The position numbers were made by a program, and so were the translations under genes. The notes below the pieces were generated by a model that saw only the letters and a program-made list of their open reading frames with translations, had not been told where the DNA came from and did no database searches. This document shows, piece by piece, positions 5,627 through 9,576 of a stretch of DNA of 64,000 nt (its first letter is position 1; every line of letters starts with the position of its first letter). This stretch comes from SAR202 cluster bacterium (GTDB taxonomy: Bacteria; Chloroflexota; Dehalococcoidia; Lucifugimonadales; Lucifugimonadaceae), in NCBI GenBank assembly GCA_016872495.1, contig VGZT01000001.1, positions 1-64,000 on the forward strand, given 5' to 3'.

Positions 5627-6886
5627 ATGCCAGCGATGTTGGCACTCACCAGGCAGGACCCCGAGGTCGCTGCTGCAATCGACGCGGACATCCGCCGACA
5701 ACGCGAGGAACTGGTCCTCATAGCCTCGGAAAACTACGCGAGCGCCGCCGTCCTGGAAGCTACCGGGTCGGTGATGACCAACAAGTACGCCGAGGGCTAT
5801 CCGGGCCGTCGCTACTACGCGGGCTGCGAGAACGTCGATGTCGTCGAACGGCTGGCGCAGGACCGTGCGAAGCAGCTGTTCGGCGCCGAGCACGCCAACG
5901 TCCAGCCCCACAGCGGCTCGACCGCAAACATGGCCGCGTACTTTGCCCTCCTGAAGCCCGGTGACAGGGTGCTCGGCATGCGCCTCGACCAGGGAGGCCA
6001 TTTGACGCACGGGGCAAAGGTCAACTTCTCAGGCAAGCTCTATGAATTCGCGTCGTACGGCGTGGACCGCGAGACCGAGCTCATCGACTACGACGAGGTG
6101 GCGCGGGCAGCGCGCGAGTTCAAGCCGAAGATCATCGTCGCCGGCGCAACCGCTTACCCGAGGATCATCGATTTTCCTAAATTCCGGGAGATCGCTGAGG
6201 ACTCGGGTGCCCACCTGATGGTGGACATGGCCCACATTTCCGGCCTGATCGCCGGAGGCGTCCACCCTTCGCCGTTCCCGCACGCCTCGGTCGTTACCAC
6301 TACCACCCACAAGACGTTGCGGGGCCCACGCGGCGCTGCCATCTTCAGCCGGTTGGACCTGGCGAAAGCGATCGATTCGGCGGTGTTCCCGAATATCCAG
6401 GGCGGCCCGCTCATGCACGTTGTCGCAGCCAAAGCGGTCGCATTTGCGGAGGCGCTTCGGCCCGAGTTCAAGGCCTACGCCGCGCAGATCGTCGAAAACG
6501 CGCGTGCCCTGGCAACCGCCCTGAACGCCGGCGGGCTGCGGGTCGTTTCGGGCGGGACGGACAACCATCTGATGTTGGTCGACATGACCCCCCTCAAACT
6601 GACCGGGCAGGAGGCGGAGGACGCGCTGCGCAACGCCGGGATCATCGTCAACAAGAATGCCATCCCGTACGACCCTCGACCCCCGCGGGTTGCCAGTGGC
6701 GTTCGCATCGGCACGCCCGCCGTCACGAGCCGGGGGATGAAGACCGCCGACATGACCAGGATCGCCGAGTTGATCCTCGAGGCGCTCCGCGCGTCCGGCA
6801 AGCCGGAGGAGCTGACCAGGATCAGGGCGCGGGTAGGGGTGTTTGCGGGCCACTTTGCCGTTCCCGGCGTCTCCGACCGCACCTAG
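5627..6886 (+). CDS. glyA: Serine hydroxymethyltransferase
   Basis: PLP enzyme interconverting serine and glycine while loading tetrahydrofolate with a one-carbon unit. At 419 residues it is family length. Seen: [13 protein letters not shown] near the N-terminus, [13 protein letters not shown], the PLP-lysine motif [13 protein letters not shown] (K229), and [13 protein letters not shown] near the C-terminus. AAAGGGA precedes the ATG at 5627; a second ATG at 5636 is also possible. Monocistronic: the next gene has its own -10 box. Confidence 0.97.
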
Positions 6887-6952
6887 CGCGCAGAACGGTC
6901 GGGGACAGCAAGGTCACAACACCGGGCGGGCCATTTTCCGGGCGTCCGGTGC

Positions 6953-6958
6953 TATACT
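6953..6958 (+). promoter_or_regulatory. -10 box (TATACT) for the rpsF-ssb-rpsR operon
   Basis: TATACT lies 23 bases before the AGGAGGGG ribosome site of rpsF, implying a leader of about 25-35 bases. No clear -35 is visible. A leader this short leaves no room for an upstream S6:S18 autoregulatory hairpin. Confidence 0.45.
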
Positions 6959-6993
6959 TACCGTTCGTCTGCTTTTGATCAGGAGGGGTTCCG

Positions 6994-7359
6994 ATTCCCG
7001 CGCCACGAAAATACGAAATGATGTGGGTACTGGGCGCCGACGCCGACGAGGCTGCGGGCCAGGCATCCCTTGAGACGATATCCGGACTGGTAAGCCAGCA
7101 CGGCGGCCAGCTTGCTGCGGCCGAGGCCTGGGGTCGCCGCACGCTGTCCTACCCGATCAAGAAGAACAAGGAAGGTTCGTACTTCCTTGCCCATTTCACG
7201 ATGGAGCAGGCCAGGGTGCCTGAGTTCGAGCGCGCCCTGAACCTGAACCAGGACATCATCCGGTACCTCGTCGTGATCCCGGACACCAAGCAGCCCAAGA
7301 AGCGGGAAGGCAAGCGCGCCGGTCGTTCCGAGGCTGCGACTCCCGCCGCATCGAGCTAG
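6994..7359 (+). CDS. rpsF: Ribosomal protein bS6, apparent AUU start codon
   Basis: Small-subunit protein that pairs with bS18 on 16S rRNA. The conserved N-terminal RKYE, which opens beta strand 1, is encoded at 7006-7017, before the first ATG (7018). In frame upstream there is no ATG, GTG or TTG before a TGA at 6976. A strong AGGAGGGG (6981-6988) is followed after TTCCG by ATT at 6994, giving ideal spacing and a product beginning with initiator Met, then PAPRKYEMM (121 residues). Starting at 7018 would delete RKYE and put the ribosome site about 30 bases away. So I annotate AUU initiation. The C-terminal KKREGKRAGRSEAATP tail is a common lineage-specific extension. Confidence 0.9.
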   Translation: MPAPRKYEMMWVLGADADEAAGQASLETISGLVSQHGGQLAAAEAWGRRTLSYPIKKNKEGSYFLAHFTMEQARVPEFERALNLNQDIIRYLVVIPDTKQPKKREGKRAGRSEAATPAASS

Positions 7360-7369
7360 GGGGGCACGC

Positions 7370-7798
7370 TTGGCCGGCCTGAACAAGATCCTGCTGATCG
7401 GCAACGCGGGCAGTGACCCGGAAATGCGCTACACGCCCAACGGCGACGCAGTTGCTGACTTCAGGATGGCCGTCAACCGCAGCTACAACACCCGGGATGG
7501 AGAGCGACGCGAGGAAACCGAGTGGTTCACCGTCACAGCCTGGGGCCGGCTTGCCGAGCAGGTCAACCAGTATGTGGTCAAGGGACGGCGCGCCTATGTC
7601 GAGGGCCGGCTTCGGAGCCGGGCTTTCATGGGCAATGACGGGCAGCCCCGGGTCGCCAATGAGGTGGTCGCCGAACGGGTCCTCTTCCTGGACCGGGCGG
7701 GTAGTGCGGCTGCCTCGGGATCGGAAGTGAGTCCGCAGAGCGCCACGCAGGGCGCCCCGCAAGAATCGCAGAGCGAGGTCGAAGACCTGCCCTGGTAA
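7370..7798 (+). CDS. ssb: Single-stranded DNA-binding protein
   Basis: OB-fold protein that coats ssDNA in replication and repair. Residues 1-110 match the SSB fold (LNKILLIGNAGSDPEMRYTPNG, then TEWFTVTAWGRLAEQV). A Ser/Gln/Glu-rich flexible tail ends in EVEDLPW, the acidic tip that recruits partner proteins (DDDIPF in E. coli). Starts at TTG after a G-rich ribosome site, 10 bases behind rpsF, in the classic rpsF-ssb-rpsR order. Confidence 0.97.
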   Translation: MAGLNKILLIGNAGSDPEMRYTPNGDAVADFRMAVNRSYNTRDGERREETEWFTVTAWGRLAEQVNQYVVKGRRAYVEGRLRSRAFMGNDGQPRVANEVVAERVLFLDRAGSAAASGSEVSPQSATQGAPQESQSEVEDLPW

Positions 7799-7808
7799 TT
7801 GGATATCT

Positions 7809-7827
7809 GATCCGCTGATGGCGGATC
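7809..7827 (+). promoter_or_regulatory. Hairpin between ssb and rpsR
   Basis: A perfect 7-bp stem (GATCCGC / GCGGATC) with a five-base loop sits just after the ssb stop and about 20 bases before the rpsR start. There is no U-run, so it is not a standard terminator. It may stabilise or separate the mRNA segments, or be a binding site; function not shown. Confidence 0.35.
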
Positions 7828-7849
7828 GTAACGGAGGCTCGTTCCAGCT

Positions 7850-8332
7850 ATGACTTCACGATATGGCGACTCCAACCGGTCGCAGTCCGGCCCCTCCGGC
7901 TCCGGTCGTCCGGCGGCCGGCACACCGGGCGCGGCGGCTCGCTCGCGCCGACCCTGGGGGCGCCGCAAGGTATGTATCTTCTGCGCCGAGAAGATCGAGC
8001 CCGAGTACAAGTCGGTCAACCGCCTCCGCAGGTTCCTTTCGGATCGCGCGCAAATCGAGTCGGGAAAGAAGACCGGCACCTGTGCCCGTCACCAGCGGCT
8101 GGTCCGGCGTGAGATCAAGCGGGCCCGACTCCTGGGCCTGTTGCCATTCACGCAGGACCACGTCCGTATCACGGGGCCGGCGCCACTGGCGGGCGCGCGC
8201 CCGGCAGCGGAGTCGGAGGACTCTGAAGCTGTAGCTGGTACGCAAGAAGGGAGCCCTGCAGGGGCAACTGATGATGCGGCGGACGAGTCCGAGTCCGCTT
8301 CCGCCAACGTTGAAGCAGAGGAAGCCCGGTAA
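7850..8332 (+). CDS. rpsR: Ribosomal protein bS18 with long N- and C-terminal extensions
   Basis: The core (about residues 36-105: RKVCIFCAEK, YKSVNRLRRFLSDRAQI, GTCARHQRLVRREIKRAR, LGLLPF) is standard bS18 and keeps the CxxC type. The protein is 160 residues, against the usual 70-90. The first 37 residues are Ser/Gly/Pro/Arg-rich and the last 50 or so are Ala/Glu/Ser-rich and acidic (TDDAADESESASANVEAEEAR). Both tails look disordered. Good GGAGG-like site before the ATG. Third gene of the rpsF operon; rplI does not follow. Confidence 0.95.
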   Translation: MTSRYGDSNRSQSGPSGSGRPAAGTPGAAARSRRPWGRRKVCIFCAEKIEPEYKSVNRLRRFLSDRAQIESGKKTGTCARHQRLVRREIKRARLLGLLPFTQDHVRITGPAPLAGARPAAESEDSEAVAGTQEGSPAGATDDAADESESASANVEAEEAR

Positions 8333-8424
8333 TTTCCGGGCCTGCCGTCAAGTCGAACTCGTCGGCCAACCCGCGACCCGATTCAAGCGCCGCGACCGGC
8401 AGTGAATTGGGAGGATCCTGACTC

Positions 8425-9576
8425 ATGACCAACCCTCCCGAGCAGGGGCAGGCAGTTGCGCAGCAGCCGGTGGGGCCGGAAAGCCACCCCGGAGGCCTCG
8501 CGCCTGCGTCCCGGAGATCGATAATCGCCCATCAGGCTGAGATGCGGCGACGCAACCGGCCATTCCTGATCGGCGGCATCGTCGTCTTCTTCCTCATCCT
8601 GACGATCCCCACCTACGCATTCGTCCAGAAGTACGTACTCCCGCCACGTGAGCTCGCGTTGCGAGTACAAGGGGTCGAGTTCACGCGGGGCGACCTGGTC
8701 GGCTTCATTCGCTTCCATCAGCGAATCTCCGAGGAGCAGGGTAAGCAGTTCCCGATCGGCACTTCCCTGTTCGATGCTCTCCAGACGATGGCAGACAACG
8801 AGATCGCGTTCCAGGTGGCTCCCCGGATGGGTATCACGGTCGAATCGGAGCAGGTCGACCGATTCATCAGGATCTCGCTCGGATTCTTCACGCTCTCGGA
8901 TCAGGAAGCGGCACTGCCCCAGAACAAGGCGCAGATCGACGAGAAGTACCGACAGTTCCTGAACGGCGTTGGTCTGACCGAAACCCAGCACCGGGAGATC
9001 GTTCGCAAGGAGCTATTCCGAGGAAAGGTGCGCGACGAGGTCGGAAAGAGCGTGCCGCGCATCCAGGAGCAGGTACGCGTTTACGAGATCAGGCTTGCGT
9101 CCGAAGACAAGGCGCTCCTCGCGAGCCTGCGCCGGCAGCTAAAGGCCGGCGACAAGGTCGAGGACCTGGCCCTCAAGAACTCGGTTGATGTCAACGTGAG
9201 GCGAACACGCGGCGACCTCGGTTGGCTGCCCCGGAAGGTCCGTCCGGAGTACGAGAACCTGTTCTTCGGGACCCTCGCAGACGGTACGAGGCGCCTGCCC
9301 GTCGGACAGTTCAGCGAACTCAGCTATGACTCCGAGTCCCGCCAGTGGATTACCTTCATGGTCGTCGAGACGGCGTCGGCGCGGGAGATCAGCGACGCGC
9401 ACCTCGAAATTCTGGCGGACCGCGCCTTCGCCGACTTTGTCGTAGAAGAGCGCAAGCGCATGGATGTTTACCTGGTCTTGAATGACCGCATCTACAGCTG
9501 GGTCAACCAGCAGGTGCGCATCGCATCGATTTTGCCGACTCCTACGGCAGTCAACCCGTTCCCTGGCCTTCGGTAA
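8425..9576 (+). CDS. Membrane-anchored SurA/PrsA-like peptidyl-prolyl isomerase
   Basis: 383 residues: a 45-residue cytoplasmic lead, one membrane helix at about 47-70 (FLIGGIVVFFLILTIPTYAF), a SurA-N-like helical chaperone region (about 90-200), then a parvulin-like PPIC domain at about 215-325 containing TRGDLGWLPR, and a final helix. This is the layout of extracytoplasmic foldases that help secreted proteins fold. It lies 8 bases before hom, so the two are probably co-transcribed although functionally unrelated. Confidence 0.85.
   Translation: MTNPPEQGQAVAQQPVGPESHPGGLAPASRRSIIAHQAEMRRRNRPFLIGGIVVFFLILTIPTYAFVQKYVLPPRELALRVQGVEFTRGDLVGFIRFHQRISEEQGKQFPIGTSLFDALQTMADNEIAFQVAPRMGITVESEQVDRFIRISLGFFTLSDQEAALPQNKAQIDEKYRQFLNGVGLTETQHREIVRKELFRGKVRDEVGKSVPRIQEQVRVYEIRLASEDKALLASLRRQLKAGDKVEDLALKNSVDVNVRRTRGDLGWLPRKVRPEYENLFFGTLADGTRRLPVGQFSELSYDSESRQWITFMVVETASAREISDAHLEILADRAFADFVVEERKRMDVYLVLNDRIYSWVNQQVRIASILPTPTAVNPFPGLR

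Follow-up and report, generated by a model that had tools for sequence, protein, structure and literature searches.

Which codon starts the translation of rpsF in a genome where no ordinary start codon precedes the conserved N-terminus of ribosomal protein bS6? The question was raised by a first-pass annotation of the window, the stretch of 64,000 nucleotides of contig VGZT01000001.1 analysed here (SAR202 cluster bacterium, assembly GCA_016872495.1), which proposed a start at AUU. AUU is a very rare start codon. Only a few bacterial genes are known to have non-canonical starts, which are invisible to gene callers. The window genome belongs to a family of Dehalococcoidia and has a size of 2.34 Mb, in 102 contigs, with a completeness of 98%.

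Reading Frame and Start Region of rpsF

The rpsF gene (positions 6994–7359, plus strand) encodes ribosomal protein bS6 of 121 aa (Pfam PF01250, E 3e-25; solved bS6 homologues, E 3e-23). It is the first gene of an operon with the usual order rpsF-ssb-rpsR, and is followed by ssb, for a single-strand binding protein (7370–7798, plus strand, TTG start; Pfam PF00436, E 9e-34), and by rpsR, for ribosomal protein bS18 (7850–8332, plus strand, ATG start; Pfam PF01084, E 2e-16). The preceding gene, glyA, ends at 6886. The phage search gave no match.

Upstream, the rpsF frame is bounded by an in-frame TGA stop codon (6976–6978, plus strand), after which direct reading of the sequence gave the codons TCA GGA GGG GTT CCG ATT CCC GCG CCA CGA AAA TAC GAA ATG, the last of them at 7018. 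No ATG, GTG or TTG is present in this frame between the TGA and the conserved RKYE, and the claim that none occurs before the first ATG was borne out as well. A Shine-Dalgarno (SD) site, AGGAGGGG, is located at 6981–6988 (plus strand); its AGGAGG (6981–6986) stands 7 nt before the ATT codon at 6994–6996 (plus strand), and the duplex with the anti-SD was computed at -10.8 kcal/mol. This is a good SD at the normal distance from an AUH start, in agreement with the earlier description of a near-perfect ribosome site that places ATT 6994 in the start position.

The conserved RKYE of bS6 is encoded before the first ATG, as had also been stated: in the profile search of the rpsF ORF the PF01250 domain begins at RKYE, 5' of that ATG. 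Solved S6 proteins have their N-terminus one residue before RxYE, as in Bacillus subtilis (MRKYEVMY). Translation from the ATG at 7018–7020 (plus strand), which is the first canonical start and the choice that a gene caller would report, would yield an S6 protein of 113 aa lacking RKYE. However, nothing resembling an SD stands in front of it, RxYE at the N-terminus is required by position 1 of the Pfam S6 profile and by the solved S6 proteins, and residues R5, Y7 and E8 do not vary among relatives. Given the N-terminus of the solved proteins, initiation at 7018 would cost S6 the first part of its conserved domain and fold. For its lack of an SD and the loss of RxYE this start was rejected, and it is considered highly improbable.

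Conservation of the Start Codon in Related Genomes

Of 100 relatives, 89 gave an rpsF match, and the start region was read in about 70. The window genome (G000) and G002, both of one genus, and G004, G014 and G032, of a second genus, carry ATT at the homologous position together with an SD-like site. In all five the ATT is the fourth codon ahead of the R of RxYE and the SD-like site is at a normal distance, the arrangements being AGGAGGGGTTCCG-ATT, AGGAGGCTTCCC-ATT, GGGAGACATCCA-ATT (twice) and AGGAGTTGTCTG-ATT. These are all the rpsF-bearing genomes of the two genera, and among the relatives read outside these genera ATT does not occupy this position; the occurrence of ATT with a ribosome site in close relatives, which had been put forward as a check on the AUU start, was thus positive in five out of five. 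The other genomes of the two genera, G001 and G023 (69% and 82% complete, respectively), gave no rpsF match. When the pattern GGAG-N5-10-ATT-N9-(A/C)G...TAY GAR...TGG was searched in 76 genomes of the family, five of them matched, with one site each, all in rpsF, while the reversed pattern used as control gave zero matches.

The S6 proteins of the other four AUU genomes share 50–63% identity with that of the window. The five proteins have 42 residues in common, and only seven of these use the same codon in every genome. Three of the seven are Met or Trp, which have a single codon; the other four include ATT, which is placed at the edge of the protein. The codons flanking it vary (CCC, CCA or TCA; GCG, GAG or GTT), and ATT is constant, including its third base. 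This conservation of the same codon by itself constitutes moderate evidence for initiation at ATT, and together with the SD sites and the lack of alternatives it may be regarded as strong.

The window genome is a draft in 102 contigs, and an ATG, GTG or TTG might have been hidden by a sequencing or assembly error; a concern over an indel or miscall at 6970–7020 had in fact been expressed. This explanation was rejected and its probability is practically negligible, as the ATT is identical in five separate species-level genomes. Another unusual codon up- or downstream could also be the true start: a CTG directly precedes the ATT in G032, and a GTT lies two codons after it in the three genomes of the second genus (G004, G014 and G032). 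None of these codons is present in all five genomes, ATT being the only start-like codon common to them and the one with the best SD spacing, and such a start is very unlikely. In G000, G004 and G014 the frame is closed some 5 to 10 codons upstream, so that a hidden upstream start is absent in these genomes. A scan of genome contigs, which yielded only three distant relatives, revealed no further AUU case, and a sister relationship of the two AUU genera is not settled by phylogenies of IF3 or S6.

On these grounds the rpsF gene of this species of Dehalococcoidia and of its nearest relatives is almost certainly translated from AUU (6994 in the window). It is a non-canonical AUH start of a known sort, but on an unexpected gene, and rpsF is probably annotated too short, or missed, in this clade.

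Starts of rpsF in Other Relatives and SD Strength

Nearly all other relatives have a TTG, GTG or ATG close before RxYE, most commonly a TTG directly before the R. Outside the two AUU genera, 34 of the 36 canonical starts scored were UUG (family loci L007–L031 and L062–L100), a codon which accounts for about a third of the strong-SD starts in the window genome, in contrast to its near-universal use on the rpsF of relatives. The AUU lies three codons upstream of the UUG used by these relatives. Computed SD duplex energies ranged from -7.4 to -10.8 kcal/mol in the AUU group (n = 5, mean -8.7) and from -2.9 to -7.7 kcal/mol in the relatives with UUG-started rpsF (n = 34, mean -5.7), eight genomes that were not parsed automatically being left out of the comparison. 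A conserved level of output would call for just such an exchange, in which a stronger SD makes up for the weaker codon.

A different case was observed in G064, of another family of the order, where rpsF has no canonical start (L101:449–451, minus strand) and the region reads AGGAGG-CCCCAA-ACG GCT AAG ACG TAC GAG. This suggests an ACG start in that genome, a single draft.

Initiator tRNA and Genome-Wide Start Codon Usage

Only one initiator-type anticodon stem-loop was found in the genome, GGGCTCATAACCC, within a tRNA-Met and with the normal anticodon CAU. An altered initiator tRNA was thus rejected, this ordinary form being the only one found. In a scan of start codons over 1.22 Mb of the window genome (about half of it; 1104 predicted genes), with out-of-frame counts as expectation, the codons at SD spacing near gene starts were ATG (104), TTG (68) and GTG (41), against 2.5, 2 and 3.5 expected. 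Over the same 1.22 Mb no excess of AUU or AUA was detected at SD spacing (ATT, 6 versus 9.5 expected; ATA, 2 versus 2), and an altered code or a generally relaxed selection of starts was discarded. With an ordinary initiator tRNA and no enrichment of AUU at strong SDs elsewhere in the half of the genome that was scanned, the AUU start on rpsF is taken as a gene-specific exception and not the product of a changed code.

Start of infC and Other Genes without a Canonical Start

The gene for IF3, infC, also lacks a canonical start in the window genome. Its start is an AUA at C13:23628 (L143:3628–3630), and the codons AUA GCT CGA GAA TAC CGC fit the conserved N-terminus. In nearly every relative of the family and order that was examined (loci including L103–L121) the infC start was AUA or, in few cases, AUU or AUC; G005 was ambiguous. 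Since infC starts with AUA, a start discriminated by IF3 very probably operates in the cells of this organism, and autocontrol of IF3 through it very probably works there.

Other genes with unusual features were recorded during the analysis. The apparent start of ruvX (L144:7140–7142, contig C14) is AUA GCG, without ATG, GTG or TTG before the region of the catalytic Asp; in relatives the start is AUA in G002 and AUC in G013, G022 and G031 (loci L149, L151, L153 and L155). In aroK (L144:9622–9624, contig C14) a CTG AGC overlaps the aroC stop (CTGA), and in relatives this AGC is preceded by TTG or GTG, so that its start is probably CUG; an AUC start was rejected, the TTG or GTG of relatives being placed where the window genome has this CTG. 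For rsmA (KsgA; L183:15490–15492, minus strand, contig C3) no canonical start precedes the conserved N-terminus, where ATT TCA is found; it was not counted in support of AUU because the congener G001 has ATG there. Finally, two thioredoxin- or peroxiredoxin-like genes carry an in-frame TGA at the active-site position (L211 near 7659, C15:27659, and L213 near 1082, C16:21082), in the contexts TGA-GICRQQL and TGA-TKQVSAF, which suggests selenocysteine.

Promoter and Leader of rpsF

By inspection, a probable -10 element, TATACT, was recognized at 6953–6958 (plus strand), preceded by a TGC (6950–6952) that would make it an extended -10. The extended element, TGCTATACT (6950–6958), is found again in G002, 40 nt ahead of the ATT, and in G004, at a distance of 65 nt from it; the corresponding elements are TGCTATAAT in G014 and TGATATACT in G032. 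A consensus promoter scan in which a -35 box was required found no promoter at rpsF. The leader predicted from the extended -10 would measure about 30 nt, and the leader region is not unusually structured (z +1.2).

In Escherichia coli a leader RNA that binds S6:S18 represses rpsF (PMC4647458), and this rpsF_leader is a known point of translational control of the same gene in many bacteria. Unlike in those bacteria, the Rfam match is missing here and in relatives, with no rpsF_leader match to E 5 in window positions 6500–8500 nor to E 1 in 12 loci of the window genome and its relatives, and the predicted leader has only some 30 nt. Control by an S6:S18 leader was accordingly rejected for the absence of Rfam matches, although a diverged S6:S18 leader structure may be present at rpsF. 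The lack of an Rfam leader and the shortness of the predicted one leave room for another control of rpsF and demonstrate none.

Possible Control of rpsF by IF3

It had also been proposed that the output of rpsF could be tied to IF3. The AUA start of infC and the CAU initiator tRNA make this plausible, and the link itself goes beyond what sequence can provide. Given the ordinary CAU anticodon, AUU must be read with a mismatch at the third position, and this mismatch, along with the known rejection of such starts by IF3, leads us to infer that rpsF is IF3-sensitive. With infC starting at AUA here and in relatives, discrimination by IF3 would be the likeliest reason why the AUU start matters. Imperfect pairing of AUU with the initiator anticodon would produce a weak 30S complex open to rejection by IF3, partly offset by the strong AGGAGG site, and synthesis of the first product of the rpsF-ssb-rpsR operon would be slowed. 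It would speed up whenever free IF3 is scarce in relation to 30S subunits and slow down at high IF3, as for infC. It is fairly probable that IF3 discriminates noticeably against the rpsF AUU, and an AUU start with reduced, IF3-sensitive output is on balance the best explanation overall, with a likelihood somewhat above even. A selected function of the IF3 coupling, beyond a low fixed rate, is rather doubtful.

Several observations stand against IF3-sensitive output. A ribosomal protein is needed in quantity, and a start roughly ten times weaker would be surprising unless the SD and the promoter compensate for it; with UUG on rpsF in relatives outside the two genera, the operon does not need AUU to work; and the displacement of the start by three codons upstream relative to these relatives is a shift that drift could produce. 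In the main rival explanation, AUU would be a fixed weak start without IF3 regulation of physiological size, either setting the output of S6 relative to SSB and S18 or having drifted from UUG with compensation by a stronger SD. The use of another weak start, UUG, with weaker SDs in nearly all relatives (34 of the 36 canonical starts scored) agrees with it, as do the stronger SDs of the AUU group, which compensation predicts. On the other hand, IF3 discriminates against AUU wherever this has been studied (E. coli infC, reviewed in PMC5472188), which makes complete insensitivity unexpected, and two genera have retained ATT when a single base change would yield ATG. A fixed weak start is regarded as a real possibility, with a likelihood clearly below even.

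A broader proposal is that the lineage has a small IF3 regulon based on AUH starts, formed by infC (AUA), rpsF (AUU) and ruvX (AUA or AUC in several genera), which would couple the supply of S6 to the IF3:30S ratio. S6 synthesis would increase when 30S subunits sequester IF3 or IF3 is low, and decrease when free IF3 is abundant. We regard this regulon as unlikely.

If IF3-sensitive output is true, starts of this kind would extend from the gene of IF3 itself to the making of the subunit that IF3 binds. A literature search limited to open-licence papers found no report of a bacterial ribosomal-protein gene that starts with AUU, and a conserved AUU on such a gene would be the first on record as far as that search reached.

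Comparison with Known Systems

The closest counterpart is infC, in which IF3 controls its own synthesis through the start codon, AUU in E. coli and AUA in Staphylococcus aureus. The rpsF gene shares with it an AUN start other than AUG, a good SD and a role in the translation machinery, and the infC of the window genome (AUA) is of the same type. In contrast to infC, rpsF encodes a ribosomal protein and the effect of IF3 on it is a prediction; any such effect would therefore be cross-regulation and not feedback.

In Streptomyces, the output from the GTC start of sigR is controlled by the level of IF3 (PMC5472188). As in rpsF, the gene concerned is other than infC and the non-canonical start is conserved, in the case of sigR within one genus. 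The codon and the gene are different, and IF3 dependence is experimental for sigR, which is repressed by IF3, whereas for rpsF it is predicted.

Output from AUU and AUA starts that have extended SDs is about 10% of that from AUG in S. aureus (PMC13009471). The genes cvfC1 (AUU) and ccpN (AUA) of this species resemble rpsF in their conserved AUU/AUA start and strong extended SD, and cvfC1 is likewise the first gene of an operon. They are not ribosomal-protein genes, and their starts were mapped by ribosome profiling.

The case of pncA/bbe22 of Borrelia burgdorferi (AUU; PMC13398362) is similar in that the conserved N-terminus is encoded before the first ATG and the start was for this reason overlooked in annotation. 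Its product, however, is a metabolic enzyme, and its start was confirmed by genetics and a crystal structure, whereas that of rpsF is deduced from sequence.

Finally, rpsT of E. coli, as far as it is described where PMC9845219 cites it, is another gene of a 30S ribosomal protein with a weak start codon. According to the same citation the codon in rpsT is UUG, in contrast to the AUU of rpsF; it affects autoregulation, and the control is exerted by S20 itself.
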